Positions 1,864-18,309 of a stretch of DNA of 56,582 nt are shown here, in pieces. How positions within the stretch are numbered: the stretch's first letter is position 1; each line of letters starts with the position of its first letter. The notes beneath the pieces are model-generated. The model was given only the letters and a program-made list of their open reading frames with translations. It made no database searches and was not told where the DNA came from. Source of the DNA: Desulfogranum japonicum DSM 18378. Lineage in GTDB: Bacteria > Desulfobacterota > Desulfobulbia > Desulfobulbales > Desulfobulbaceae. Location: positions 1-56,582 of the forward strand of contig NZ_AUCV01000041.1 in assembly GCF_000429945.1 (NCBI RefSeq), given 5' to 3'. A program made the position numbers and the translations under genes.

Positions 1864-3312
1864 CTACATGCCCATGGTTTCACCTATCAGGAATTTATGA
1901 ATGGCATTGGCCGCAATCTTTGCCTGCCCCATAGCACTGATAACCGTAGCCGCTCCTGAAACAATATCTCCGGCGGCAAAGACCCCAGGTTTGGATGTCA
2001 GCATGGTGGTTTCATCCGTCAAGATAGTTCCCCATTTGCTCGTTTGAATATCAGGGGTTGTCTGTGGAATCAGTGGGTTTGGCTTGTTACCAATTGCTAT
2101 AATTACCGTATCAGCAGGTATGGTGAACTCACTTCCCTGAACTGGAACCGGCCGTCTCCTTCCAGATGTATCCGGTTCCCCGAGCTCCATGCGAAGGCAT
2201 TCAACCCCGGTAACCTGATGACGCTCATTGGTCACAATGCGGATGGGATTGGTAAGGAGATGAAAGACAATTCCTTCCTCGGAGGCGTGATGTATTTCTT
2301 CATCACGGGCAGGCATTTCCTCACGACTTCTACGATAAATAATGGTGGAGTCAGCTCCCAGGCGAAGCGCTGTTCTTGCTGCATCCATGGCAACATTACC
2401 TCCACCCACTGTCACTGCCCGGTGCGGTATTACGGGGGATGTTGCAAAGCGTGGAAATTCAACGGCACGCATAAGATTTGCCCGCGTAAGGAATTCATTG
2501 GCGGAAAAAACACCTATTGCGTTTTCTCCTTCAATGCCGAGAAAAGAGGGAAGCCCTGCCCCTGTTCCAATAAATACTGCATCGAATCCCTGTTTCATCA
2601 GTTGATCGACAGTTTCACTCTTACCTATTACATAATCGGTATGAATGCTCACCCCCTGATTCTTCAACATATTGATTTCATATTGAACTATTTCTTTCGG
2701 AAGACGAAATTGGGGTATACCGTACATCAGTACACCACCTGCCAAATGCAATGCCTCATACATTACTACTTCATGGCCACGGTTACTCAGTTCTCCGGCC
2801 ACAGTGATTCCTGCCGGACCTGCACCAACAACTGCAATCCGTTTACCTGTATGGGAACACGAGGGCTGCTTCTGTATATTATTGTGTTTTCGCGCATAAT
2901 CGGCAGCAAAACGTTCCAGCCTGCCAATGGCCACAGGTTCCCCTTTCTTCCCAAGAATACAACGCGATTCGCATTGAATTTCCTGTGGACATACTCGCCC
3001 GCAAACTGCAGGAAGTGCAGTGTATTTTTTCAGCGTATTCTGGGCATCAAGAAATTTTCCTGCTGCAATTTCTCTGATAAATTCCGGAATCTGTATGTTC
3101 ACCGGACAGCCTTCAACACAACCTGGTTTTTTACATTGAATACAACGTGAAGCCTCGAGTATGGCAACCTCCTCGCTATATCCTTTGGGAACCTCTTCGA
3201 AATTGGCCCGCCGCCTTCGAGGATCCTGCTCCGGCATAGGTTGCCGTGGAATTTTAATTCTTTGTTTTCCTGTACGCTTTTTTTCAAGTATGGGTTTCGT
3301 TTTGCTTTGCAT
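1864..3312 (-). CDS. NfnB/GltD-like NADPH-binding flavoprotein subunit
   Basis: A 482-residue protein of the glutamate-synthase small-subunit / NfnB / SudA family. The N-terminus carries the cysteine motifs for two 4Fe-4S clusters (CIQCKKPGCVEGCP, then CGRVCPQEIQCESRC). The first Rossmann fold for FAD is AVVGAGPAGI with the AGGVLMYGIPQFRLPK segment. The second binds NADP(H), with VGGGNVAMDAARTALRLGAD followed by RRSREEMPAR, an NADP-type pattern. The closing FAD motif is GVFAAGDIVSGAATV. The ATG at 3312 has a GAGGAAATAACT Shine-Dalgarno. It follows the NuoG-NfnA fusion by 12 bp, so the NfnA and NfnB functions are adjacent as in NfnAB. In Nfn enzymes this subunit holds the bifurcating FAD and takes NADPH. 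No glutamate synthase large subunit is nearby, so a GOGAT role is unlikely. Confidence 0.88.
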   Translation of the reverse strand: MQSKTKPILEKKRTGKQRIKIPRQPMPEQDPRRRRANFEEVPKGYSEEVAILEASRCIQCKKPGCVEGCPVNIQIPEFIREIAAGKFLDAQNTLKKYTALPAVCGRVCPQEIQCESRCILGKKGEPVAIGRLERFAADYARKHNNIQKQPSCSHTGKRIAVVGAGPAGITVAGELSNRGHEVVMYEALHLAGGVLMYGIPQFRLPKEIVQYEINMLKNQGVSIHTDYVIGKSETVDQLMKQGFDAVFIGTGAGLPSFLGIEGENAIGVFSANEFLTRANLMRAVEFPRFATSPVIPHRAVTVGGGNVAMDAARTALRLGADSTIIYRRSREEMPARDEEIHHASEEGIVFHLLTNPIRIVTNERHQVTGVECLRMELGEPDTSGRRRPVPVQGSEFTIPADTVIIAIGNKPNPLIPQTTPDIQTSKWGTILTDETTMLTSKPGVFAAGDIVSGAATVISAMGQAKIAANAIHKFLIGETMGM

Positions 3313-3324
3313 AGTTATTTCCTC

Positions 3325-5817
3325 TCAATCTCCCATTTTAAGGGTAGATGTGGGCAAGCATGAAGTGAGATGTATTCCCTGGGGCAATGCTTGAATTTCT
3401 TGGGGCGCATAAGCGTTCCTGCGTAAGGTTAGTTCCTCCCAGTCAACCTTGTGCCCGTCAAAAAAAGGACCATCAACACAGGCGAACTGTGTTTGGTTGG
3501 CTATGGAAACCCTACACGCCCCACACATACCTGTGCCATCAACCATAATGGGATTTAAAGCCACTAGAGTAGGAATATCAAAGGTCTTGGTCAAATCAGA
3601 AACCTGCTGCATCATAAATGTACAGCCGATGATAATACATTGATTAATGTGCTCTTTTTCCGTCACACTGGAAACACCTTCCTGGATGCCACCGTGCATC
3701 CCCCCACTGCCGTCTTTTGTGGCAATGAGTAATTCATCACAGACCTCGGCCAGTTCCTGTTGCCAATAGAGCAGGTGGGATGATGCTGCCTCAATCATAC
3801 ATATTACCCTGTTTCCCGCCTCATGAAGGATTCTGGCCAGGGGAAAGATGGCTCCAATGCCATAACATCCTCCGCCAAGAAAGATGGTTCCTTTTTCCTG
3901 AATGGATAATGGTAGCCCAAGAGGACCGCTGACATGTGCAAGTTGGTCTCCTGCAGTCAGCGAAGTTAACTCTCTGCTGGAACGCCCTACTTCTTCAATG
4001 ATCAACGAAATGGTTCCGGCATTGGCATCCCAATCCGCTAAGGTAAAAGGAGAACGTTCTGATGTTTCTTTGGCCATGAGAATTACAAATTGACCTGGGA
4101 GAGCAAAACGTGCCACCTGAGGTGCTTCAATGATTAACAAGTGCATGTTGGGGGCGATTTCTTTTTTCTCCAGAAGCGCAAAGCCGTTGCAGATTTCATC
4201 TTCTGCTTCATCTACAAGTGTTGTTGGAAGTTCAAAGGCTTTAAGCCCTGGAACAAAATCTGCGACAAGGTGACCTCTGAAGCGTATAGGGATATCTCTG
4301 CAGTTATTACGTGGCTCTCTCTCGAATTTTTCCGGAGCAGGGTCATCTTGAATCAGAGAGGTAATGGTTTCCGCACGGTCAAAATCAAACCCGTTCAACC
4401 CCAGGACTTTAGCTATAAGACAAATAATCATCCATTCTGGCCGTGCTCCTCCCGGCAATATGCTTGACTTGGAAAGAGTGCGAATTTTTCCCGACGAAGT
4501 TTTGAATGTACCGTCAACTTCACTGAGTATAGCAGATGGAAGGACTATGGTCGCCAATTGAGAGGCCATCGATTCAAGACAGTCGATGACCAGTGAAAAT
4601 TCGACATTTTTAAGGATTTGCGGGCTTACCAGTGGTCCATTGGTAATGAGAGCTTGAACCTTGCCCTGCTGCACTGAATCGGACAATTCTTTGATTTTAG
4701 GTGTCTCACAGTCAGCTTCAAAAGGTAAAACAATCAAATGCCCCTGCAGGGCTGTTGCAAGCCGGTCGTATATAAAACGCTCTTCCCTAGTGGTGGTAGC
4801 GCTGATAACAACAACCACCGTGCCCCGTCTCGCTATCAAGCCTTTGCCAACAGACTGCAGCGCATCATCCCAACTCATGGGGATTTGATCACCGTCCTCC
4901 CTTACTAAAGGTCTAGTCAGACGTTTCGTGGAGTTGACGATCTGTGCCGCACCAAAACGTCCCAGGGCGCACAGGCGATCCTCTGCTTCGAAGCCGGGCA
5001 TGGTATAGGCTAGAAGTTTTCCTCCTTTATTTTCAGCCTTAACAGAACATCCATTCGGGCAGAGTATGCAGGCAGAAACACTTTCATGTTCTGGTTTTCC
5101 TTGCCATCGGGCATACCTGTCCATAAGTGTCCCTGTTGGGCAAATGTCGATACAAGCCCCACAGAAGTTACACCCCGATTCAAGGTGGCTTTTATCAAAA
5201 GCTGTACTTATTTTTGACCATTTCCCGCGATTGATGATGCTGATAGCGGGTTCTCCATGGATCTTTTCACATATACGCCAACACCGACCACAGAGGACAC
5301 AGAGATTGTAATCTCGGTCCATAAAGGGATCATCTCTCTCCAGTTTATAGGCAGAATACATGACAGGGAGTTTCAATTCCTGCCTTTCGGAGGTCAGCAC
5401 CATTTCCCGCAGGTCGCATTCTTCCCTGTTTGCACAGAAGCCACAGCGGGTTGATCTGCCAGCTTTTGTTGCTTGTGGTCGATGTGTTTCACAGGGCTCG
5501 CGATGGGGACAGGCAAAACAACTGTTCGGATGCCCTGAAAACAGCAATTCCAAAGTGCAGTTTCGCAGGTCCGTTAAACGTTTGGTGCGAGTGGACACCT
5601 GCATCCCCTGAGTGGCCGGGGTCGTACAGGATGTGGGAAAACCTCGAACCCCTTCTATTTCGACAACGCACATTCTGCATGCCCCGTAGGGAGAAAGATC
5701 TTTGTGGTCGCAGATAGTCGGGATGGAAATACCTGCTTCACGGGCAGCCTGAAAAACTGTTGCCCCTTGTTCAACCTCAACTTCCTGCCCGTCTATGCTC
5801 AATTTGATAGTACTCAT
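3325..5817 (-). CDS. NuoG-like / NfnA fusion iron-sulfur flavoprotein
   Basis: An 830-residue fusion. Residues 1-240 are a NuoG/HydA-type electron wire: a plant-type 2Fe-2S (CDHKDLSPYGACRMC), a His-Cys3 4Fe-4S (HPNSCFACPHREPC), a further CGFCANREEC, and a double 4Fe-4S ferredoxin (CVLCGRCWRIC, CNFCGACIDICP). Residues about 255-530 are a shortened molybdopterin-oxidoreductase-like region with a CxLCPNGC 4Fe-4S site, as in NuoG. Residues about 545-830 are a complete NfnA/SudB-like ferredoxin reductase module, with PGQFVIL, RSPFTLAD, GGGCYGIGAIFPLA and the 2Fe-2S loop GTGMCGACR. No H-cluster motif is present, so it is not a hydrogenase. I chose the ATG at 5817 over an upstream start at 5850 because AAGGAG precedes it and the N-terminus then begins at the 2Fe-2S domain. 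The fusion implies that the Nuo-like and Nfn-like halves form one complex. Confidence 0.85.
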   Translation of the reverse strand: MSTIKLSIDGQEVEVEQGATVFQAAREAGISIPTICDHKDLSPYGACRMCVVEIEGVRGFPTSCTTPATQGMQVSTRTKRLTDLRNCTLELLFSGHPNSCFACPHREPCETHRPQATKAGRSTRCGFCANREECDLREMVLTSERQELKLPVMYSAYKLERDDPFMDRDYNLCVLCGRCWRICEKIHGEPAISIINRGKWSKISTAFDKSHLESGCNFCGACIDICPTGTLMDRYARWQGKPEHESVSACILCPNGCSVKAENKGGKLLAYTMPGFEAEDRLCALGRFGAAQIVNSTKRLTRPLVREDGDQIPMSWDDALQSVGKGLIARRGTVVVVISATTTREERFIYDRLATALQGHLIVLPFEADCETPKIKELSDSVQQGKVQALITNGPLVSPQILKNVEFSLVIDCLESMASQLATIVLPSAILSEVDGTFKTSSGKIRTLSKSSILPGGARPEWMIICLIAKVLGLNGFDFDRAETITSLIQDDPAPEKFEREPRNNCRDIPIRFRGHLVADFVPGLKAFELPTTLVDEAEDEICNGFALLEKKEIAPNMHLLIIEAPQVARFALPGQFVILMAKETSERSPFTLADWDANAGTISLIIEEVGRSSRELTSLTAGDQLAHVSGPLGLPLSIQEKGTIFLGGGCYGIGAIFPLARILHEAGNRVICMIEAASSHLLYWQQELAEVCDELLIATKDGSGGMHGGIQEGVSSVTEKEHINQCIIIGCTFMMQQVSDLTKTFDIPTLVALNPIMVDGTGMCGACRVSIANQTQFACVDGPFFDGHKVDWEELTLRRNAYAPQEIQALPQGIHLTSCLPTSTLKMGD

Positions 5818-5850
5818 GTAATCTCCTTGATAAATTGCTGGTAACGTCAC

Positions 5851-7707
5851 TTATATGACCAGTACCGCCTCAAATTTGCATGCCTGCCGACAGGAACCAC
5901 ATCGGATACACATCTGTTTATCAATATAGTGCGACTCTTTTCTGGCTCCGTGTATAGCATTCACCGGACATGCGAGCACGCAGGCTCCACAACCCGTGCA
6001 TTGATCCACATCAATGGTGAAGTCGATCAAGTCCCTGCAAACTCCCGCAGGACATTTTTTATCCGTAATGTGCGCCAGATATTCCTCTTCATAGTATTTG
6101 AGCGTCGTTAATACCGGATTGGCTGCTGTCTGCCCTAAGCCACAAAGCGATCCATTACGCATGGTAGCTCCAATTTGGCGTAATTTCTCGAGATCGCTAG
6201 GCTCGCCACGCCCTTCTGTAATATCGGTAAGAATTTTCAGCAGATGTTGCGTTCCCATACGACAGGGGGCACATTTTCCGCATGACTCGTTTTCTGTGAA
6301 TGTAAGAAAGTAGCGTGCCATATCGACCATGCATGACTCTTCATCAATAACAATCATGCCTCCGGACCCCATAATCGAACCCACTTCAGCCAGGTGTTCA
6401 TAATCCACGGGGGATTCGATAAACGAATCTGGGATACAACCTCCTGAAGGCCCTCCAGTCTGTACGGCCTTGAGTTTCTTTCCTTCAGGAACACCACCGC
6501 CAATTTCTTCAATGATAGTGCGCAACGACGTACCGAGAGGAACTTCTATCAATCCGGTTCGGTTGATTTTCCCGGCAAGGGCAAATGTCTTTGTTCCACG
6601 GCTTTTTTCCGTACCGTATCCCGCATACCATGCTGCTCCTCTTTCCATAATCGCAGATACTGCCGCTAACGTTTCCACGTTATTTATGTTTGTGGGCTTT
6701 CCAAAAAGTCCTGAGACGGCTGGAAATGGAGGTTTAGGTTTTGGCATTGCCCGTTTGCCTTCGATGGATTGCATGAGGGATGTTTCTTCACCACAGACAA
6801 AGGCACCCGCGCCCTTCTTGATATGTATTTCAAAAGAGAAACCGGAACCCATGATGTTTTGCCCCAATAGACCGTGTTCGTGCATCTGGGCGATGGCACC
6901 TGTTAATCGATTGACGGCTAGAGGATATTCAGCCCTGCAATATACATAGCCGGTGTTTGCACCAATGGCATACCCTGCAATCACCAACCCTTCAAGCACG
7001 GCATGGGGATCGCCTTCCAGTACGGAACGGTCCATAAAAGCGCCGGGATCCCCCTCATCAGCATTGCATATGACATATTTTTTTTCGTCTGCTACATTGC
7101 GAGCAAAAGCCCATTTAATTCCTGTCGGAAATCCTGCTCCTCCTCTGCCACGAAGCCCGGATTCTTTGATTTCTTCAATGACCTGATCTTGTGTAAGGGT
7201 TACCGCTCGGGCCAAACCGTTATACCCTCCGCGGGCTATATAATGATTGACGTTGGTCGGGTCTATTATTCCGCAGTTACGCAAAACAATACGCACCTGC
7301 GGCTTGCTGAAGGGCAATTCTGAAAACTCAGGTAATTCCCCGTTAAATTCAGACGTTACAACTGCCAGGGCCAATGGTTTATGTATTTGGTTATTTATCA
7401 GATGGGATTCAACCAGATGGGAAACGTCTTTTGGGGTTACGCCCTGATACAATACTCTTTGTCCGTCTGTACCTCTCAGTTCGACAAGTACCTCGGCGTA
7501 ACATAGGCCCATACAGCCGACTTCGTATAAATCTGTTTGATTTAGTAGATTATTCGTTATCAATTCTTTTTTAAACGCCCGCAATACCTCCTGGGATCCT
7601 GCAGCCCTGCCGCAGGTAGCGGAGCCTACCAAAACACGGCGCCGATCATATTGTTCAAATTGTCGCCATTCCTCTTTTGCCGTTTGTTGAATCGATGCAA
7701 AACTCAT
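5851..7707 (-). CDS. NuoF-like FMN/NADH-binding subunit (HydB type)
   Basis: A 618-residue NuoF/HydB-type subunit. It has an N-terminal thioredoxin-like 2Fe-2S domain (SATCGRAAGSQ and VGCMGLCYAEV). The FMN/NAD(H) core carries GLRGRGGAGFPTG (about 182-194) and CNADEGDPGAF (about 213-223). The 4Fe-4S site is CGKCAPCRMGT (about 474-484), and a C-terminal double 4Fe-4S ferredoxin has CTGCGACVLACP and CIRCGSCRQAC. This longer form is typical of NAD-linked multimeric hydrogenases, formate dehydrogenases and bifurcating complexes rather than of respiratory complex I (about 440 residues). Its start overlaps the NuoE-like stop by 4 bp, indicating translational coupling. Expected role: exchange of electrons with NAD(H). 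Confidence 0.92.
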   Translation of the reverse strand: MSFASIQQTAKEEWRQFEQYDRRRVLVGSATCGRAAGSQEVLRAFKKELITNNLLNQTDLYEVGCMGLCYAEVLVELRGTDGQRVLYQGVTPKDVSHLVESHLINNQIHKPLALAVVTSEFNGELPEFSELPFSKPQVRIVLRNCGIIDPTNVNHYIARGGYNGLARAVTLTQDQVIEEIKESGLRGRGGAGFPTGIKWAFARNVADEKKYVICNADEGDPGAFMDRSVLEGDPHAVLEGLVIAGYAIGANTGYVYCRAEYPLAVNRLTGAIAQMHEHGLLGQNIMGSGFSFEIHIKKGAGAFVCGEETSLMQSIEGKRAMPKPKPPFPAVSGLFGKPTNINNVETLAAVSAIMERGAAWYAGYGTEKSRGTKTFALAGKINRTGLIEVPLGTSLRTIIEEIGGGVPEGKKLKAVQTGGPSGGCIPDSFIESPVDYEHLAEVGSIMGSGGMIVIDEESCMVDMARYFLTFTENESCGKCAPCRMGTQHLLKILTDITEGRGEPSDLEKLRQIGATMRNGSLCGLGQTAANPVLTTLKYYEEEYLAHITDKKCPAGVCRDLIDFTIDVDQCTGCGACVLACPVNAIHGARKESHYIDKQMCIRCGSCRQACKFEAVLVI

Positions 7708-8168
7708 TCTTTTCCCTCGATGAGTTTACGAGTTGCAGTGCCGGTCATTCGACCAAACACTTTATCGTCAACAACCATTACCGGTGCCAGAGCACACGAT
7801 CCGAAACATGCTACCCGTTCCACGCTGAACGACCCGTCTTCACTTGTCTGGCCGGGTTGTACACCTGTACTTTTTTCCACCGCTTCCAGAATACGGTCAC
7901 TCCCGCGGACATGACAGGCTGTACCGTCACATACCCGGATATGATGTCTACCCGGCGGAATGAAACGAATTTGCGAATAGAAGGTCGCGACTCCATACAC
8001 ATCATTTTCCGAAAGATGCAGATGGTCGGCCACTGCTTTAACTGTTTCTGGAGAAAGACAATGAAAACTTTCTTGCATTTTCTGTAACAGGGGAATGAGA
8101 TTTTCCCTTTCCCTGTCATAAGCAGCAAGCAGGGATGGGAGTAGAGACATTGGGAGGATCTCAGACAT
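7704..8168 (-). CDS. NuoE-like 2Fe-2S subunit (HydC type)
   Basis: A 154-residue thioredoxin-like 2Fe-2S protein of the NuoE/HydC family. The four cluster cysteines are seen in CDGTACHVRGSD and VACFGSCALAPVM. Length fits the family (about 150-170). The ATG at 8168 has an AAGGAG Shine-Dalgarno at good spacing. It is the first redox subunit of the operon and overlaps the NuoF-like gene by 4 bp. It follows the aldehyde dehydrogenase after a 204-bp gap that holds a strong hairpin. NuoE-type subunits dock on NuoF and usually serve structural or electron-storage roles in NADH-dependent complexes. Confidence 0.92.
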   Translation of the reverse strand: MSEILPMSLLPSLLAAYDRERENLIPLLQKMQESFHCLSPETVKAVADHLHLSENDVYGVATFYSQIRFIPPGRHHIRVCDGTACHVRGSDRILEAVEKSTGVQPGQTSEDGSFSVERVACFGSCALAPVMVVDDKVFGRMTGTATRKLIEGKE

Positions 8169-8372: not shown

Positions 8373-9854
8373 TCAGTACAGACCGAATTTATCTTCACTC
8401 AAGCTCATGAAGATATTTTTCATCTGGGTATAATGGTCTAGTATGACTTTGTGGGTTTCACGACCGATGCCGGATTTTTTGTATCCGCCGAAAGGTGCAT
8501 GCGCAGGAAGAAGATTATAACTGTTTATCCACATCCTTCCAGTTTCAACGCCATTGGCGACTCGAAATGCGCGGTTGATGTCCTTCGTCCAAACAGCACC
8601 GCCAAGACCAAATTCGCTGTCATTTGCCATGTCGATGACTTCCTGTTCGTCTTTGAATTTTATAGCTACTGCAACAGGGCCAAAAATCTCTTCCTGGGCC
8701 ACGCGCATCTTGTTATTGACATCAACTAAAAGGGTGGGTTGCATAAAATACCCTTTTTCAAGTCCGTTCGAGGAGATACGTTCACCACCGCAGGCCACCT
8801 TGGCGCCCTCTCCCTCACCGATCTTCACATAAGAAAGAACTTGTTCTATTTGTGTCTTGTCGACCAGTGCACCCATTACCGTGTCTTCCTGCCAAGGCAT
8901 TCCAACTTTGACTTCATTAAAGGCTTTGCATGTTGCAGTGATAAATTTATCGTAGATATCCTCGTGAACAAACACGCGTGACCCCGCACAGCAGACCTGT
9001 CCCTGATTGAACAAAATGCCCATTTGTACGCCCTCGATGGCTTTTTCCCATGGAGCATCTGGGAAAAAGATATTTGCTGATTTACCACCGAGTTCCAGAG
9101 TGGCTGGTATAAGTTTTCCTGCGGCAGCATCTGCAATTTGATACCCAATATCGGTGGAACCTGTGAAAGCGAGTTTGCTGAAACCGTTATGTTCAAGCAT
9201 GAATTGACCTGACTGTGAACCACGGCCGGTAACTACATTAACCACACCTGGAGGCAGAACCTGATTGAGTAGTTTCGCAAGCTCAAGCAGGCTTAAAGAT
9301 GTCGTACTGGAAGGCTTGATGACCGTGCAGCAACCTGCCGCGAGAACAGGCGCTATTTTCCATGCCGCCATGGTAAAAGGAAAGTTCCAGGGAATGATTT
9401 GACCTACTACTCCGATAGGTTCGCGGAGAATTATGCTTAATGTCTGGTCATCTAGCATTACAGCTTTCCCTTCTTCGGTTCGTATTGCCGAGGCAAAGTA
9501 ACGAAAATGATCTGAACTCAAAGGGATATCGACATTTTTCGTTTCCCGGATAGGTTTACCGTTATCCAGGGATTCGATCATAGCTAATCTGTCAAGATTG
9601 GCATCGATAAGATCGGCAATTTTCAACAGCATGGCTGAACGTTCTTGAGGGCTGACTTTTTTCCAGGAGTCAAACGCTTTCCAGGCAGCTTTAACTGCAA
9701 AATCAACGTCTTGTTCGGTAGCATCCGGGAATTCGGCTAAAACTTCACCGTTTCCGGGACAATAGGCCTTGCAGGTATTTCCATTTCCAGCGTCTATCCA
9801 TTCACCACCTATCAGCATTTTATAACTGGAATCCATAGGTCTTGGCATGTTCAT
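8373..9854 (-). CDS. NAD(P)-dependent aldehyde dehydrogenase (AldB/ExaC/AcoD-like)
   Basis: A 493-residue ALDH-superfamily enzyme. Seen are the substrate/cofactor segment IIPWNFPF, the coenzyme loop FTGSTDIGY, the catalytic glutamate region LELGGKSANIFF, the catalytic cysteine in NQGQVCCAGSR, and EEIFGPV. The C-terminus (YTQMKNIFMSLSEDKFGLY) resembles acetaldehyde dehydrogenases of the AldB/ExaC/AcoD group, which is the basis for suggesting acetaldehyde or a short aldehyde as substrate. It is the first gene of the operon with the Nuo/Nfn-like complex and is divergent from an AcoR-like sigma-54 activator. The ATG at 9854 has a TTGAGGAAAA ribosome site. Oxidation would yield NADH or NADPH for the complex encoded downstream. 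The exact substrate cannot be told from sequence alone. Confidence 0.9.
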   Translation of the reverse strand: MNMPRPMDSSYKMLIGGEWIDAGNGNTCKAYCPGNGEVLAEFPDATEQDVDFAVKAAWKAFDSWKKVSPQERSAMLLKIADLIDANLDRLAMIESLDNGKPIRETKNVDIPLSSDHFRYFASAIRTEEGKAVMLDDQTLSIILREPIGVVGQIIPWNFPFTMAAWKIAPVLAAGCCTVIKPSSTTSLSLLELAKLLNQVLPPGVVNVVTGRGSQSGQFMLEHNGFSKLAFTGSTDIGYQIADAAAGKLIPATLELGGKSANIFFPDAPWEKAIEGVQMGILFNQGQVCCAGSRVFVHEDIYDKFITATCKAFNEVKVGMPWQEDTVMGALVDKTQIEQVLSYVKIGEGEGAKVACGGERISSNGLEKGYFMQPTLLVDVNNKMRVAQEEIFGPVAVAIKFKDEQEVIDMANDSEFGLGGAVWTKDINRAFRVANGVETGRMWINSYNLLPAHAPFGGYKKSGIGRETHKVILDHYTQMKNIFMSLSEDKFGLY

Positions 9855-9937
9855 TGTCTTTTCCTCAATTTGGTTTACGTGAAACTACTTGGGTCTATTA
9901 AAAAAACAAACGGATTAGCCTCCGATTACCGTCTATT

Positions 9938-9953
9938 AACAAAGTACATGCCA
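9938..9953 (-). promoter_or_regulatory. Candidate sigma-54 (-24/-12) promoter of the ALDH-Nuo-Nfn operon
   Basis: The minus strand reads TGGCATGTACTTTGTT. Against the consensus TGGCAYR-N4-TTGCW, the -24 element is perfect, the GG-N10 spacing is right, and the -12 element has GT in place of GC. The predicted start near 9926 leaves about a 70-nt leader to the ATG at 9854. The divergent gene is a sigma-54 activator, which supports the call. Confidence 0.55.
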
Positions 9954-10039
9954 TTGCCTTCAAATAACTCAACGCATGAAAATACAAACAATATTTCAAG
10001 CAGTTATAGAGTGTTGTTTTTTCTTCTTGCCTTGGACGA

Positions 10040-10063: not shown

Positions 10064-10188
10064 ATTGGACTGTTTCAGGAGTGTCCGGAACTGTCCCAAC
10101 TCTTAGAGCATACCTGTAACATGTGTAGGACATTACCGGCCATAAGGTTGCGGGATGAAATTTTTTACTGTTGAGCGGAGACGTCTAT

Positions 10189-12192
10189 ATGACAGAACAA
10201 ACAGAAAGGCATTCCCAATGTACTTATTCTGCGTGGGAAACATTTTTGATGAACGGAGAGATCGAAGGCCTCAATGTCAGAAAAGAAATACTTGAATCCT
10301 GGAAGCGATGTAGAGAACTTAAGGTCGATCCCTATTGTGGCAGGAGTACCAAAATGCTTGCTACCAGTAAATTTGAAGCACTGCGGGAGAAAAGGAAAAT
10401 ACTGATTGATGTGGCACGACCATTTATGGATAAATTGTACCAGTTTGTCTCCTGTTCGGGCTTTGTCGTTCTCTTAAGTAATGAAGAAGGATATCTTTTG
10501 GCCACCATTGGCGCTAATCAGATCCTTCGCAAGGACTATGACCTGAACCTCAGGCCGGGAGCTTTGTGGATGGAAAGAGAAGTGGGGACGAACAGTATCG
10601 GTACTGTATTAATATTGAAAAGACCGTTCCAGATTTCAGGTACTGAGCACTATTGTTGTAAACATCACTCTCTTACCTGTTCCGGTGCCCCGATCCGAGA
10701 TGATCGCGGAAAAATAATTGGTATTCTCGAAATGTCAGGCCCTGTGCAAAGAACACATTTACATACGTTGGGTATGGTGGTGGCAGCGGTTGAAGCCATT
10801 GAACAGCAACTGCGGGTGGGGCAAAAAAACAGGAAACTCAGTCTGCTTAACAACAGTCTTAATAATATCTTCATGACGGTTTCAGACGGTGTTATTGTGG
10901 TTGATATTAAAGGACAAATACAACAGATTAATCCGGTTGCAGAAAAAATGTTTACCGCCAAAGTTCAGTCCCTTAAAAATAACAATATAGCTCTCTATCT
11001 TGATTGTTGGGAAAAGATCTACCAAAAAATGGTAAACGAAAAGGAGTGTAGCAATATCGATGCACTTGTATCTACAAACAATGGGGTAATGGCGTGTGTC
11101 GTCACCGCAAAACCGATTTATGATAACAACGATGATCTGACCGGAGGAGTTCTTTTTCTTAATCCTCTTCATACCATTAAAAAACTGGTTAACCAATATA
11201 GTGGTTCACATGCGACTTTTACCTTTGAAAATATTATTGGAAAGGGAGACGTTATTCAAAAGGCCGTTAAAATGAGCCGCCTGGTAGCCAGAAATGAAAG
11301 TAATGTTTTATTGTGTGGAGAAAGTGGGACAGGAAAAGAGATGTTTGCCCAAGCTATTCACAATAAAAGTCTTCGCCGTAATGGTCCGTTTATAGCAATT
11401 AATTGTGGAGCTATACCAAGAGAACTTATAGGGAGTGAATTGTTTGGCTATGTTGAAGGAGCTTTTACCGGAGCACGGAAGAAAGGGCGTCCTGGAAAAT
11501 TTGAACTGGCCTCGGGCGGGACTATTTTTCTTGATGAAATCGGTGACATGCCGCTTGAACAGCAAGTAGCATTACTCAGAGTACTGCAGGAAAAAAGTAT
11601 CACCCGCATAGGGAGCGACAAGGTCGTAGTTGTGGATGCCAGAATAATCTGTGCGACTAATAAAGATCTCAAATTAGAGGTCAGCAAAGGAAATTTTCGT
11701 CAAGATTTATACTATAGGCTTAACGTGATCTCCATCGTTTTACCTCCGTTGAGGATGCATAGGGAGGATATACCGTTAATGTTGGATGTGTTTTTGGCTA
11801 AGACATGTAGGGAAATCGGTAGTAAAACGACTGGGGTATCCCCATTGGTTGTAGAGCACCTCCTACAGTACGATTGGCCTGGAAATGTCAGGGAGTTTCA
11901 AAATGTTGTGGAACGAATGGTTAATATATCTGCGGGAGAGAAGATCGGGCTGGACCATTTACCAGAAGAAATATTCGACCAACGATTCCCTTCTATTGAA
12001 CAGGACCATGGGCAGCAGGTTCCTGATATTTTGAGTGAAAGAAAAAAAATCAAAGAGTTGCTGGCAGTGAAAGAACGGGATGAAATTCTTCGAAGAATAC
12101 ATGAAAATCAAGGCAATATCAGCAAAGTGGCAAGAGACATGGGGATTTCAAGAAGTTCTGTCTATCGTAAAATTAAGAAGGTTATCGAGTAA
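10189..12192 (+). CDS. Sigma-54-dependent activator, AcoR-like (GAF-PAS-AAA+-Fis)
   Basis: A 667-residue enhancer-binding protein. The N-terminal half has an AcoR-type GAF sensory domain (about 60-215) with an unusual cluster EHYCCKHHSLTCSGAPI, then a PAS-like domain (about 230-330). The AAA+ core has Walker A GESGTGKE (about 376-383), the sigma-54 contact loop GAFTGA (about 424-429) and Walker B GGTIFLDEIGD. A Fis-type helix-turn-helix ends the protein (NISKVARDMGISRSSVYRKI). I chose the ATG at 10189 because GCGGAG lies 8 bases upstream; an alternative TTG at 10171 has no better site. It is divergent from the aldehyde dehydrogenase operon and probably activates it in response to an aldehyde, alcohol or acetoin-like ligand. 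The ligand is inferred from AcoR and not demonstrated. Confidence 0.9.
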   Translation: MTEQTERHSQCTYSAWETFLMNGEIEGLNVRKEILESWKRCRELKVDPYCGRSTKMLATSKFEALREKRKILIDVARPFMDKLYQFVSCSGFVVLLSNEEGYLLATIGANQILRKDYDLNLRPGALWMEREVGTNSIGTVLILKRPFQISGTEHYCCKHHSLTCSGAPIRDDRGKIIGILEMSGPVQRTHLHTLGMVVAAVEAIEQQLRVGQKNRKLSLLNNSLNNIFMTVSDGVIVVDIKGQIQQINPVAEKMFTAKVQSLKNNNIALYLDCWEKIYQKMVNEKECSNIDALVSTNNGVMACVVTAKPIYDNNDDLTGGVLFLNPLHTIKKLVNQYSGSHATFTFENIIGKGDVIQKAVKMSRLVARNESNVLLCGESGTGKEMFAQAIHNKSLRRNGPFIAINCGAIPRELIGSELFGYVEGAFTGARKKGRPGKFELASGGTIFLDEIGDMPLEQQVALLRVLQEKSITRIGSDKVVVVDARIICATNKDLKLEVSKGNFRQDLYYRLNVISIVLPPLRMHREDIPLMLDVFLAKTCREIGSKTTGVSPLVVEHLLQYDWPGNVREFQNVVERMVNISAGEKIGLDHLPEEIFDQRFPSIEQDHGQQVPDILSERKKIKELLAVKERDEILRRIHENQGNISKVARDMGISRSSVYRKIKKVIE

Positions 12193-12897: not shown

Positions 12898-15800
12898 TTA
12901 CAGATCGCATACTTCTTTGACCCAATCTTCAAATAGAGAACGTTCTTTGGTTTTCATCTGTTCCCGTGAGAAAGGTGAAAAAATCACAACAATTTCTGGA
13001 GCTTTTTCTTTCTCTTGCCAACGAATGACTTCCAGTTCATGCTTCCACCGACCTTCTGGCCAGTTATGTTCGGAAGAATAGGTATAATCCAGCAGCAGAT
13101 CTTCTACTTCAGCGCCGGATATCCGAAAACAAAAGAAATCAGCAGGCTTTCCGTTTATTACTAATTGCTTCTTCTGGTCAAGTGGGATCATCTCCAGACT
13201 ATAGCTTTGAGTAGACTCTGTACGTTGGGACTGGCTGAGTGAGGTCGCATTGAGGCTTCTCATTTCCCGGCCATCGGCGCTAATCGCACCGGTTATTTCG
13301 GCCTTGGTCCAATAACTGGCATTGCTCAGTTCTCCAGGGTCATTAACAATACGCTTATTACCATCAAAGGTGCCATTCATATGGAGCATAAGAAATTTTG
13401 TTCCATTCCATTTCAGCGGCACATCTTCAAGCAGAATACGAGGGGCGATTTCTTTTTTTATCGTTTTCTCATTGGAAAAACCAAGCGGACCTTTTTCCAG
13501 TTTAACGATTGGCAGGCGCAGGAAAACCCAAGCCCTGGTGGTTGCGGCCAGTGCCTGGTTTTCAAGAGGGGTTACAGTTGCAGCAATTTCTTCTATTGCC
13601 TTATTGGTTCCCTTGCTCATCAAATGCTTGGAGACCGAGTTCAGGTCGGTTGCCACCTTTGAGGCATCGTATCCACTCAAGGCCTTGATTGCCCGTCCGG
13701 CATAGGCTGGGTTGGTGGCATAGGATTGAAATGCCTGGTTCAGGGCACTGAAATAGCCCGATACAGATTTTGTATTGTTTACCGCAGGAATAAGCTGCGT
13801 CTTCAACACTGTAGCGGCCTGGCTCATGGACAAAAGAGAACGTGATTTGTAAGAATTTACCTGAGGTTGAGGAGCTGAAGATGTCGCTGGATCAGCGGAG
13901 AGCCCTACTTTTTTCAGCAGCCAACCATAGCCGAACCGATGTTGATAGCCAGAGGATTCCTTTTTACCCATAGTGCCTGTTCCAGCCGTTGTCTTGAATA
14001 TGCTTTGGTTGCTGCGTGGTACCGCACCGACATTAACGGCCTGGTTAACCTGGTTCATGAAACGGGGATCCTGGGCGGAAAGTGATTGCATTACCGCTTC
14101 GTTGGTTATCTTTGTTGTGACAAGTTCCTGGCGCAGCGCGTTTGCTTCGGAATGATTGCCGGAAGCCTCTGCCATCCTGATTTTCTGCATTCGCTCGGCA
14201 TTAAGCATGCCCGATGCTTTTGAACCTTCCTGCATGGCACCAGCCATATAGTGACGGGACTGGCGCAGAAAAGAATTGCCTTCTTTTTGTTTCGTTGCTT
14301 CCGGGTTGCCAAAGGTAAATATACCAGCTTCCTCAGGTGTTTTGTGCCGCCGCACTGCCCTTGCTTTTTCCTGAAAAACTGGATCATTAAAAAGAGGGCT
14401 ATTTTTTGAAGCACCGTTGTCACTGGCAATGGAGAATGATTTATCAACACTTTTTCCGATAATGTGATAATCGGGCTTGCTAGTATTGCCGCCAATACCT
14501 GCTTCTGTTGCTTTTTTCAAATTATCAATAACAGCGCCAGCCGGATCTTTGATCCCGTATTTCCCCTCTGTGGTGTAATGTAGCCCACCTTTTGTAGAAA
14601 ATTTGTCGCTACCCCGTTCAGCTCCATAGCTGGCGGCCGCTGACTGTGAAGAACTGCCGATAATATCCGCTTTCGATGCGGGTTTCCAGATAACGGTATC
14701 TGCTTTGGGTATAACCCAGCGGTCAGGATATTCATGTACCTTATAGCCACGATTTTTCAAGGCATTGATGAATTGTTTTCCCGAGCCCAGATCACTGAAG
14801 GTACGGTCAATATCACTCATGATGCTTTCAGGTTTGCCGCCTGATTTGATGACAGCCTTTTTGATGCCCAGTTCGTTAATAATATCGTCTTGTTCCTGCC
14901 AGCGCTGCTCATATCCCTTATTGTGTTTGCTGCGGATGTCAGCCATTTCGCCTTCCCACTGCTCTTTTACACGCTGATATTCAGGATGTTTGGTATTAAC
15001 GGTACCATCCGCATTTCTCGCTGTATCAGGGATACGGGCTTCATGTTGTCTGGTGCAATTTTCAAGTGCATTTTTGAGGTCTTCACGCTTGGCAATGACG
15101 CCGTATTCTCCTGCCAGCTCGCCCTGCTTTTTATTGTATTTTTTTCGAAGAGATGGGTAATCACGATGGTTCGTGTTGATGGAACCGTCTGGATTGCGCG
15201 GCACTTCCGCCAGATAGGCTTCGTTAAGCTTGTTTTTCTTATAACGAAAGGCATCAGTGTTATCGGTAAAAGCATCAAAATGTGGCTCTCCTTTGGGCTT
15301 GCCGACTTTTGTCCCGGGAATATCAGCGCCCTTGGTTCTTCCCTGCATGCGCTGACCAACTTTTTCAAAGAGCTTATTCATTACATAGGTGTAAGCAGCA
15401 TTTTCCAGTCCACCCTGCCAGCCGCGATAGCGTATTTTACCGGTTTGCTGGTCTTTTTCCAGGGAGTAATAGCCATCATAAAAGGCCCAGACCACGTCTA
15501 CCGGATTAAGTGCAGCCCTGATGCCGTTCTCAAAGGCTTTTACCGTGCCGCCTTCAATGTAGCCAGTACCAACACCGTGGGTCATGGCCACATAGGCCCC
15601 TCCAGGCACAAACAGCGCTCCAAACATAAGCGAGACGTTGCAGGCAGTCTGAACTTTCTCGGCATACCACAGGCGCTCTTCTGCAGTGACCAGCTTTTGC
15701 CGAGCCGCCTGTTGCTCTTTTACTGTTTCCAGGTAGGCGGCATCGCGCAGGTCTGCAAGCCGTTTGACACGCTCTTCAAGGGGAAGATCAGATTGGTAGA

Positions 15801-18309
15801 CCGCGTCAATATCATTGAACATTTTTTGGGTTGCCCCATACGAGCCCTTCTCACGGTTAGCAGCCAGACGTGGAAGGCGTTTAAGCATCCTGGATTCCTT
15901 TGAAAAGAGATCCACTTCCTCCTCAATCTTTGCAATGAAGCGCTGTTGCTCCCTTTCTTCCCAGATAGTTCTATGTCGAACGATTTTGCCGGTTCGCAGA
16001 GAGGCAATGAGATCCTGCTCAATTTGTAGGTTGGTCATCTGCATCACCAGTTCATCGTCAAGACTCGCACGGATAGCTGGATCAGTTGCCAGGGTAAGCT
16101 CCTTTTTAATCCGCTCCATGTTGTGCTTGATGATATCGATAACCGACTGATGCTGCAAAACTGCAGATTTAATTTCCTCAGGCGTCATGACTGGCGGATC
16201 GTCACCTTCCTCTCCTTCTTCGTTCTCTGGCTCCTTTGACTGACGGCCAACGCTCTGTAACTCCTGCCTGTCCAAATCAGCATCAGACGGATCAATGGGC
16301 CTGGCTTCGCAACCGGAACTCCAGGTATAGATGTAATCCCTTTTGCCTAACCAGGCGGCATGTGCCGGAAGAAACGGAAGCTGGTTAGAGGTATTAACGC
16401 CAGCAAAAAGCTTGAGTGCAACCCGCATCTGTCTCTCCTCGGTATTTGGTTCAGCCAGGACTTCACCTTCAACCGCAAAACTGTAATTATCCTCGTTGGG
16501 ATAGGCGATATTATGAAGCCTGGAAAAGCCTGGCTTGATGGAACCAGCCGGCTTGAGTTGACGGGGAACAGTCAAAGAGCAGGTGAACGGGAACTCGTCA
16601 ATCGAAGTGCGGATTGACTTACCCTGTATGACGATAGTATCGCCAGGATGCATTACTGCCTTGGGATGCTCCCAATGCATTTTATAGTTGTATTCTCCGT
16701 ATGTTAGGGCAATCCTGTCCGGTGGCCGCTCATAGATCAGAGAGGTGGCAGCCGGAATAAACACTCCATGTTCGACGATACCATCGACTTTATTAAGGCT
16801 GTTTTCGTTTGCTACAATGAACCCTTCTTCAGCTGTACGTTTTTTGAAGTTGTCAGCAAATTCAACATGAGATAAAACCCAGCAGCCTTCGTTTCGAGTG
16901 GCATTCAGGGCATCCATTGCCTTCTGGTGACGTTTACGGGCATTGCACTGAGCTTTCAGGGGATTCGGTGGATCACCCAGTTCCCTTATGCCGGTAATAC
17001 AGTGCAGGGCATCTGTTTTCAAATTCTGAAGCCGCTTTGTGATGATATAGCCGCTGTCAAGCAGGGAGCGGGTACTGAGTTCATCCTGATAGATGGCCGA
17101 TGCTGCAGCCATCTGCAAGGTCTCCCGTACCCCTTCAAGATCAGACTCGATCTGTCCGAGCATGGTAAAATAACGGTCTAAAAGCAGATTAAGCCGGGTG
17201 AAATACATATGGGCTTCTGTTGAGGGTTGCTCCTGAAATGGCGCCCATAACCGTTGAAAGCTCTGTGTTTTTTCTCCTTTGTCAGGAATGCCGCAGATAA
17301 GGCGCATGGCTTCAATCGTGTGCAGCAGTGTTTCCTGGTAGTCCTTGATAGACTCTGCTGTCGGCTCAGTAGGAATCTGTTTTATCGGATCACTCTCTGG
17401 TAACTGCTCCCCAATCACCCCCGTATAATGAGACGTTGTCCATAGGACAACCGGTAGAGTCCATTGCTGAGGATTGCAAGGGTCGTTGGCCGGAAAACCT
17501 GGGAAGGCCTTAACCATTGGAGCAGCATTGAGCTTTGGCAGGGTTCCGCCAAGTGCGGCGATCTCATCCAACATACCACTTTGGATCGCATACTCGGATA
17601 TGATGTCAAATTTACCGGCCACAGCACTGTCTGGCTGCCAGATTGAAGCTGTTTTAGTTTGTGTAGTTTGGGAAACATCTTCAAGTGAGCTCTGTGTTGA
17701 TGATCTAGCGGGTTCATGATCCTGAGCCATCATTGGATTCCCTGAAAATGTAATGTCCTGCCGCGGTTCAAGCACCAATTGTGGCATTGCTTTTGCCTGG
17801 GGTAGAGCCATTTCCAGTTGTCTTGCTCTGCTGGCATAATAGATTTGCAAGTCACGTTGATGCAAATTTTCTGTCACCAGGAGCATGTTATAGATGGCAC
17901 GAGTGCATTGCGCATCGTGTTCAAGCACCTCTTTCAAATCTGCAACAGCAGGACTCCACTTCTTTAATTGTATCCTGGTGGCAGCTCTATTCAGCAGGGC
18001 ACTCAAATCATTCTGGCCGGTCTTGACAGCGTGATCAAAAGCCAGTTCTGCCTGTTGAAATTCTTTTTGCTGGTACCAGATAATCCCCATGTTGAACCAG
18101 GCATTATGGAGCGAGGCATCTTTGGTGGTTGCCCTTTGGTAATAGGCAAGAGCGTCTGCCGGATTTGTCTTCTGCACTTTCAGAGCATGACTGAAGGCAC
18201 GGGCAGCATCCACGGGTATTGAATCCGCATCCCCTGGAGTGCTAAAGCAAAAAAGTGTTGATATCAGTACCACCAGGATCAAAGGAATACCCTTTAGCAA
18301 ACCAGCCAT
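12898..18309 (-). CDS. Giant exported protein with N-terminal TPRs, function unknown
   Basis: An 1803-residue protein that I do not recognise. A signal peptide is seen at residues 1-28 (basic start, hydrophobic core LILVVLISTLFCFS, then GDADS). Three or so TPR units follow (about 35-150; NAWFNMGIIWYQQKEFQQAE is a clear one). Then come a helical region, a beta-rich segment (about 540-670), an acidic linker (EPENEEGEEGDD), a long charged coiled-coil region (about 715-875) and a hydrophobic stretch (about 885-915, SLMFGALFVPGGAYVAM). A two-copy motif DGxxNTxHxxY lies about 60 residues apart near 1040 and 1100. A glycine/serine-rich middle and a beta-rich C-terminus (about 1590-1803) complete it. 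The hydrophobic patch after coiled coils recalls secreted toxins or envelope-spanning proteins, but no toxin motif is seen. It is a single gene between repeats, with no immunity gene adjacent. Confidence 0.8.
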   Translation of the reverse strand: MAGLLKGIPLILVVLISTLFCFSTPGDADSIPVDAARAFSHALKVQKTNPADALAYYQRATTKDASLHNAWFNMGIIWYQQKEFQQAELAFDHAVKTGQNDLSALLNRAATRIQLKKWSPAVADLKEVLEHDAQCTRAIYNMLLVTENLHQRDLQIYYASRARQLEMALPQAKAMPQLVLEPRQDITFSGNPMMAQDHEPARSSTQSSLEDVSQTTQTKTASIWQPDSAVAGKFDIISEYAIQSGMLDEIAALGGTLPKLNAAPMVKAFPGFPANDPCNPQQWTLPVVLWTTSHYTGVIGEQLPESDPIKQIPTEPTAESIKDYQETLLHTIEAMRLICGIPDKGEKTQSFQRLWAPFQEQPSTEAHMYFTRLNLLLDRYFTMLGQIESDLEGVRETLQMAAASAIYQDELSTRSLLDSGYIITKRLQNLKTDALHCITGIRELGDPPNPLKAQCNARKRHQKAMDALNATRNEGCWVLSHVEFADNFKKRTAEEGFIVANENSLNKVDGIVEHGVFIPAATSLIYERPPDRIALTYGEYNYKMHWEHPKAVMHPGDTIVIQGKSIRTSIDEFPFTCSLTVPRQLKPAGSIKPGFSRLHNIAYPNEDNYSFAVEGEVLAEPNTEERQMRVALKLFAGVNTSNQLPFLPAHAAWLGKRDYIYTWSSGCEARPIDPSDADLDRQELQSVGRQSKEPENEEGEEGDDPPVMTPEEIKSAVLQHQSVIDIIKHNMERIKKELTLATDPAIRASLDDELVMQMTNLQIEQDLIASLRTGKIVRHRTIWEEREQQRFIAKIEEEVDLFSKESRMLKRLPRLAANREKGSYGATQKMFNDIDAVYQSDLPLEERVKRLADLRDAAYLETVKEQQAARQKLVTAEERLWYAEKVQTACNVSLMFGALFVPGGAYVAMTHGVGTGYIEGGTVKAFENGIRAALNPVDVVWAFYDGYYSLEKDQQTGKIRYRGWQGGLENAAYTYVMNKLFEKVGQRMQGRTKGADIPGTKVGKPKGEPHFDAFTDNTDAFRYKKNKLNEAYLAEVPRNPDGSINTNHRDYPSLRKKYNKKQGELAGEYGVIAKREDLKNALENCTRQHEARIPDTARNADGTVNTKHPEYQRVKEQWEGEMADIRSKHNKGYEQRWQEQDDIINELGIKKAVIKSGGKPESIMSDIDRTFSDLGSGKQFINALKNRGYKVHEYPDRWVIPKADTVIWKPASKADIIGSSSQSAAASYGAERGSDKFSTKGGLHYTTEGKYGIKDPAGAVIDNLKKATEAGIGGNTSKPDYHIIGKSVDKSFSIASDNGASKNSPLFNDPVFQEKARAVRRHKTPEEAGIFTFGNPEATKQKEGNSFLRQSRHYMAGAMQEGSKASGMLNAERMQKIRMAEASGNHSEANALRQELVTTKITNEAVMQSLSAQDPRFMNQVNQAVNVGAVPRSNQSIFKTTAGTGTMGKKESSGYQHRFGYGWLLKKVGLSADPATSSAPQPQVNSYKSRSLLSMSQAATVLKTQLIPAVNNTKSVSGYFSALNQAFQSYATNPAYAGRAIKALSGYDASKVATDLNSVSKHLMSKGTNKAIEEIAATVTPLENQALAATTRAWVFLRLPIVKLEKGPLGFSNEKTIKKEIAPRILLEDVPLKWNGTKFLMLHMNGTFDGNKRIVNDPGELSNASYWTKAEITGAISADGREMRSLNATSLSQSQRTESTQSYSLEMIPLDQKKQLVINGKPADFFCFRISGAEVEDLLLDYTYSSEHNWPEGRWKHELEVIRWQEKEKAPEIVVIFSPFSREQMKTKERSLFEDWVKEVCDL

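Follow-up and report, generated by a model that had tools for sequence, protein, structure and literature searches.

What a protein does that runs from a NuoG/HydA-type iron-sulfur chain straight into an NfnA module, and with which partners it would do so, is the question raised by the window analysed here, a stretch of 56,582 nucleotides from Desulfogranum japonicum DSM 18378. A preliminary description had proposed a continuous 830-residue fusion, and Pfam, NCBIfam, phmmer and VIA-align bear this out, with the addition that the gene lies on the minus strand, which the description left unstated: one uninterrupted frame (3325 to 5817) leads from an ATG at 5817 to a stop at 3325, and the plus strand across the same interval carries 23 stops. 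The open reading frame itself covers 3325 to 5850, with an alternative GTG start at 5850 that would give 841 residues. Because an RBS-like AAGGAG lies immediately 5' of the ATG at 5817, the 830-residue form is the likelier product.

A domain search, proposed earlier as a check on the fusion, returned a NuoG-type FeS module, a partial Molybdopterin match and an NfnA module. Residues 1-245 (5083 to 5817, minus strand) make up the NuoG/HydA-type FeS module, in which Pfam places Fer2_4 at 14-89 and Fer4_Nqo3 at 175-242 (841-residue numbering) and whose cysteines are conserved without exception across the 20 aligned fused proteins. Judged by motif, it would hold an N-terminal [2Fe-2S] cluster (C36, C47, C50, C64), a His-ligated [4Fe-4S] cluster (H96, C100, C103, C109) and two ferredoxin-type [4Fe-4S] clusters (173-183 and 216-226), besides a CxxCx5C group at 125, 128 and 134. 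There follows, at residues 246-535 (4213 to 5082, minus strand), a truncated molybdopterin-type domain with putative [4Fe-4S] cysteines at 250, 253, 257 and 283. The earlier suggestion that this region is shortened proved correct, since only 268 of the 715 residues of formate dehydrogenase H (1fdi) align with model residues 243-534 (VIA-align, Z 26.4); the Pfam match (389-481, 841-residue numbering) likewise takes in just the C-terminal part of the profile, 250-352 of 353. The domain is probably not catalytic, and a formate dehydrogenase-like molybdopterin enzyme is not favoured on these same values, a complete domain being absent.

The NfnA module occupies residues 544-804 (3406 to 4188, minus strand). 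NCBIfam PRK06222 spans 558-822 of the fusion, phmmer matches 546-803 to the P. furiosus NfnI small subunit (5jca_S, E 1.9e-70), and the AlphaFold model of 544-804 superimposes on that chain with Z 34 and an rmsd of 2.2 over 256 aligned residues. The module carries an FAD motif, altered nucleotide loops (C651-Y652 and C732) and, overlapped by a Pfam DHODB_Fe-S_bind match (766-803, 841-residue numbering), a putative [2Fe-2S] loop of D760, C765, C768 and C780, close to where the preliminary description had placed it (about 761-770); we take D760 to be a cluster ligand. The aligned fused proteins share 27 invariant cysteines, and motif-based cluster assignment leaves two of them over, C651 and C732. 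The model, built from 20 fused rows, has a mean pLDDT of 70.7 and a pTM of 0.49, with pLDDT below 50 in the FeS region 112-240. Among Foldseek's top 1000 chains, to which the VIA-align comparison extended, the Stn-type chain 9bov is one of the best 50 rows and 8oh5 is not.

A sequencing or assembly error joining two genes, which would have undone the fusion, is ruled out by a second full-length copy, 67% identical, on another contig of the same 5.8-Mb genome, where it sits in its own BfuC-BfuB-fusion-NfnB run, and by fused homologues in other genomes. A count of how often the fusion occurs, also proposed earlier, found it at full length in 9 of 73 family genomes and 11 of 257 class genomes, the own genome counted in both, and in at least 3 of 395 sampled phylum genomes, again with the own genome, among the matches listed, best first; a search of the genus to which the window belongs found none in its six other genomes. 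A scan of public genomes yielded 40 loci, 24 with the fusion, ten with separate NuoG and NfnA genes and six with no NfnA in view (L047, L049, L050, L056, L058 and L059, with L047, L049 and L059 ending at or near a contig end). As the scan used only two peptide patterns, it undercounts. The fused records, mostly metagenome bins, come from Desulfobulbus, Desulfonatronum, Syntrophaceae, Desulfobacterales and others, with single records from Acidobacteria, Neomarinimicrobiota and Omnitrophota; L057 is a named strain, Desulfobulbus rhabdoformis DSM 8777. A CGCG-like tail closes many fused proteins, the second copy (in L009) among them, and is absent from the window copy (near 3325).

It is the partner genes that decide what the fusion is, and in this respect the preliminary description was incomplete. 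In the window, four minus-strand genes form a run: BfuC, a NuoE-type [2Fe-2S] subunit of 154 residues (7704 to 8168; Pfam 2Fe-2S_thioredx), BfuB, a NuoF-type FMN subunit of 618 residues with a C-terminal two-cluster ferredoxin domain (5851 to 7707; Pfam Complex1_51K, NADH_4Fe-4S and Fer4), the NuoG-NfnA fusion, and NfnB, the predicted b-FAD and NADP(H) subunit of 482 residues (1864 to 3312), which starts 12 bp past the fusion stop. Since it is preceded immediately by BfuC and BfuB and followed immediately by NfnB, the fusion reads as the BfuA-type member of what is probably a bifurcating complex. Of the 24 fused loci, 21 show BfuC, BfuB and NfnB around the fusion, and the remaining three are cut by contig ends; BfuB is split over two overlapping frames in L030 and L032. 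NuoG and NfnA are separate adjoining genes in 15 related loci. In the ten such loci from the scan the genes run BfuC-NuoG-NfnA-NfnB-BfuB, and six of the ten show all five; L122, L123 and L125 have the order BfuC-BfuB-NuoG-NfnA-NfnB. The sequence of L124 begins within NuoG, and in L121 BfuB lies on the opposite strand. That genes fused in one lineage stay neighbours elsewhere argues that the NuoG-type, NfnA and partner products work together. Some loci depart from these arrangements. L050 and L058 have BfuC and a NuoG-type gene with no NfnA, NfnB or BfuB adjoining, and in L045, a Spirochaetota record, an NfnB frame of just 181 residues (9488-10033) lies beside NfnA, with no BfuB or BfuC found within the locus. 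A binning or assembly mix is possible for L050 and L051, because their frame lengths are equal up to about 8.6 kb and then diverge, although the two belong to different bins.

Two further minus-strand genes may share the transcript, an NAD kinase gene 559 bp past NfnB (402 to 1304) and an aldehyde dehydrogenase gene 204 bp before BfuC (8373 to 9854); neither was seen beside other loci in a neighbour check of the scan loci. A sigma-54-like site with one mismatch (9953-9939, minus strand) lies 84 bp before the aldehyde dehydrogenase start and beside a divergent sigma-54 activator gene (10171-12192). The site is only suggestive, since the pattern occurs at chance level, with 69 matches in the window against 61.6 expected; sigma-70 and terminator scans of the window were likewise at chance level. 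Between the aldehyde dehydrogenase gene and BfuC, an 11-bp perfect hairpin with no T run (8293-8267, minus strand) could end or attenuate transcription. Farther off lies a frame of 1803 residues (12898-18309, minus strand), the N-terminal part of which is repeat-like.

Does the core formed by BfuB and BfuC belong to the Bfu family? The best PDB matches of the window BfuB are bifurcating HydB, Bfu and Stn chains. FMN (51K), SLBB, 4Fe-4S and C-terminal ferredoxin domains are all found in BfuB, SLBB scoring 26.1 bits, slightly below the Pfam cut-off of 27, and BfuC has the thioredoxin-like 2Fe-2S domain; here we assume that the InterPro numbers given in PMC9304861 correspond to the Pfam names we used. 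The B1 and B3/B4-type cysteines of BfuB align with those of HydB. However, its N-terminal thioredoxin-like motif retains three of the four cysteines of the HydB motif, like Stn-type 9bov, and since all six Bfu core clusters are invariant according to the part of PMC9304861 available to us, this speaks against filing the window complex strictly under Bfu. A remnant of complex I is not favoured either, there being no complete molybdopterin domain and BfuB being closest to bifurcating chains. In six loci (L028, L031, L033, L034, L038 and L044), BfuB is fused to a further GltD/NfnB-like domain (1033-1073 residues, genes near 3.7-7.0 kb of each locus) beside a separate NfnB, and in all six of these domains the Glu126 position is taken by Lys, as it is in Stn-type chains; L121 has a similar partial BfuB-GltD-like frame of 893 residues.

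The NfnB of complex operons groups with NfnAB-type NfnB and apart from GltD-like rows (support 100/100), in a tree that leaves out L051 and L053 as too short and includes one mislabelled GltD-like ORF of L029; the NfnB of L029, inside the NfnAB-type clade, sits with standalone NfnB. The GltD-like class (L081-L089) is our own label, set by identity and by the lack of a neighbouring NfnA. The window NfnB has motifs for two [4Fe-4S] clusters with the Glu ligand, and for FAD and NADP(H). Glu stands at the position of E126, a cluster ligand of NfnL in the available part of PMC9503767, in all 24 NfnB of fused operons, the window NfnB included, and the latter also has Arg at the R201 position. The Stn-type chains 9n5u and 9bov have Lys in place of Glu126, which thereby separates NfnB from Stn but proves no bifurcation, because GltD-like rows also keep the Glu (9/9). 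We had considered Glu126 and Arg201 as proof of bifurcation and dropped the idea, as these rows keep both.

NfnA itself also departs from known NfnAB. In the nucleotide-binding half, standalone NfnA has GGGxG and, later, GP; complex-associated NfnA has GGC[Y/F]G and GC instead, in all 25 fused and all 15 split rows, the first motif reading GGC in 38 of these 40, AGC in L124 and SGC in L125 (read by eye). The third G and the P are kept in 21 of 21 standalone rows, that is, NfnA with NfnB adjoining and neither Bfu nor NuoG genes in the limited flanking sequence covered (the trimmed row L075 reads G and P), and also in the genome's own PyrK. The preliminary description had spoken of a full-length ferredoxin-NAD(P) reductase module; a complete NfnA is indeed present, but these two altered motifs set it apart from ordinary NAD(P) reductase modules. 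The FAD and [2Fe-2S] motifs are retained. Since split complex-associated NfnA also carry the change, it goes with the complex and not, on the aligned sequences, with the fusion. With both motifs changed in 40 of 40 complex-associated rows as against none of 21 standalone rows, the NfnA FAD probably relays electrons and no longer serves NAD(H); we infer that NAD(H) binding was lost at NfnA, which would leave the BfuB FMN as the NAD(H) site.

A tree built from 62 NfnA rows places the 25 fused ones in a single clade (100/98), itself nested within a clade of 40 fused and split complex-associated rows (100/96), with standalone NfnA outside. This tree leaves out L090-L092, L102 and L118-L120, which come from the same genomes as included rows or are shorter cuts, as well as hits covering fewer than 220 positions and rows of fewer than 200 residues. 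As the fused NfnA are a single clade, one fusion event suffices to account for them. By the same token, the motif change is common to one clade and may have been a single event.

Does the complex do the work of standalone NfnAB? Among 23 genomes of genus g7, eight have the fusion complex, 13 have a standalone-type NfnB match (53-59% identity, the match in G022 being partial) and none has both, an exclusion with a chance of about 1 in 11,000 if the genomes were independent, though they are relatives. Separate nfnA adjoins in 11 of the 12 standalone-type NfnB loci examined in this genus; the other, L080, starts inside nfnB at a contig end. The window genome has no NfnB beyond the two complex-associated ones at E values up to 1e-100. 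In some genomes of genus g7 the fusion complex seems to substitute for standalone NfnAB.

The explanation that best accounts for the whole, and which we regard as probable, is a four-subunit bifurcating (or confurcating) transhydrogenase, BfuC-BfuB-[NuoG-NfnA]-NfnB, in which the fusion would be the central wiring subunit and the NfnA FAD a relay. Such a complex would reversibly link NADP(H), NAD(H) and ferredoxin. NADP(H) would react at the NfnB FAD, from which electrons would pass through the NfnA [2Fe-2S] cluster and the NfnA FAD to the NuoG-type FeS chain, and the FMN-FeS core of BfuBC would exchange electrons with NAD(H) and ferredoxin. The direct electron passage between the NuoG-type and NfnA parts that the preliminary description read from the fusion may occur along this route. 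Because its nucleotide pocket is altered in two motifs, which now contain two invariant cysteines and an aromatic residue, the NfnA FAD would pass electrons on inside the enzyme, as a relay or gate; in cells that have it, the complex would do the job of standalone NfnAB. Table 1 of PMC9304861, as far as available, gives physiological potentials near -380 mV for NADPH, -280 for NADH and -500 for ferredoxin; given these values, NADPH could drive the joint reduction of NAD+ and ferredoxin, and the reverse reaction could make NADPH. The conserved four-gene run, the split neighbours, the BfuB ferredoxin domain, the NfnB clade, the NfnA motifs and the exclusivity in genus g7 all count for this arrangement. 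Against it count that motifs cannot prove bifurcation, that GltD-like rows share the tested NfnB residues, that the window BfuB has three of four N-terminal cysteines, that six genomes of the own genus go without the complex and that a single event in one clade may account for the changed NfnA motifs.

It is conceivable that bifurcation sits elsewhere in the complex. Ferredoxin could also be reduced at NfnB, and one may picture two bifurcation sites in series: the NfnB FAD would split the NADPH pair, one low-potential electron leaving by the NfnB 4Fe-4S pair and the other passing via NfnA to a Bfu core with its own FMN-FeS site, while a C651/C732 dithiol beside the NfnA FAD would gate passage and the GltD-like domain of BfuB in the six loci would be a second NADP(H) port. 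We give this only a tentative place, because by our estimate the electrons that remain after the first split may lie too high for a second. That NfnB and NfnA are simply an ordinary NfnAB pair that bifurcates alone (NADPH to ferredoxin, plus NAD+ at the NfnA FAD), with NuoG and BfuBC as a tethered second engine, would agree with the tested cofactor ligands (Glu at E126, Arg at R201, the Asp and Cys of the NfnA [2Fe-2S] loop), all of which are kept. However, a mere tether needs no change in NfnA, and both nucleotide motifs are changed in 40 of 40 rows, even where NfnA is a separate protein, which makes an ordinary pair unlikely.

The two new cysteines could also be taken to mean that the NfnA FAD site has become disulfide-active or cluster-bearing and serves a third acceptor, a thiol or protein disulfide, the complex then not being primarily a transhydrogenase. 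C651 and C732 are invariant in all 20 aligned fused proteins, and in the AlphaFold model they follow two strands of the nucleotide domain (644-649 and 726-731), the ends of which we presume to be neighbours in the Rossmann sheet. In Xfn (5vj7_B), a structurally characterised relative of NfnAB, the first motif is different and GP is kept, so NfnA relatives can vary at these motifs. No candidate acceptor gene recurs in the loci looked at, though, the closeness of C651 to C732 is presumed from the topology of the fold, and in genus g7 the complex seems to stand in for standalone NfnAB, which points to the same job; we hold a third acceptor to be improbable. Least probable is a simple NADPH:NAD+ conduit with no ferredoxin coupling. 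The limits of motif evidence, the tested NfnB residues kept in GltD-like relatives and the cysteine missing from the BfuB N-terminal motif would all allow it, but BfuB retains its C-terminal two-cluster ferredoxin domain, and the non-bifurcating homologues described in the available part of PMC9304861 lack clusters B2-B5.

How does the proposed transhydrogenase compare with known systems? It resembles Stn / Nfn-Bfu, as far as the available parts of PMC10482914, PMC7483475 and PMC9304861 describe it, in its BfuC/StnA and BfuB/StnB core, in a NuoG-type subunit with an inert molybdopterin-type domain and in an NfnB/GltD-type NADP(H) module, and by analogy the overall reaction is probably the same. 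However, Stn lacks NfnA, and its StnC has the NfnB-type domain within the NuoG-type chain (PMC10482914, available part), whereas in the window the NuoG chain has no NfnB/GltD domain and carries NfnA at 544-804, NfnB is a separate protein (1864-3312), and Glu stands where Stn-type 9n5u and 9bov have Lys. With NfnAB (NfnSL), the window shares complete NfnA and NfnB, their FAD and FeS motifs and the NfnB clade; it differs in having NfnA fused to NuoG, tied to BfuBC genes and changed in two nucleotide motifs. HydABC and NiFe-HydABCSL of the Bfu family likewise have the BfuBC core and an A-subunit FeS module, but in the window fusion NfnA occupies the C-terminal place, and neither Pfam nor NCBIfam finds a hydrogenase domain in the fusion beyond the FeS module. 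In patterns B to D of fused Nfn homologues (PMC6405883), NfnA is also part of a longer chain, but there it is fused with NfnB, and the available part of that paper describes no fusion of NfnA with NuoG. Nor is such a fusion named in the titles and abstract openings among the matches listed, a search bounded by its leaving most subscription papers, preprints and all supplements outside. The available part of PMC9304861 leaves 17 BfuB clades with no assigned function, and the present complex might be among them.

One gene cluster thus joins parts of NfnAB and of Stn, both of which couple NADH and ferredoxin to NADPH and which the available part of PMC10482914 treats as separate machines. Having both candidate sites, it is a natural system in which to ask where bifurcation takes place and what role the NfnA flavin has once the NAD motifs have changed. 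If the genes were annotated as fragments of complex I, the way in which the cells make or use NADPH would stay hidden.
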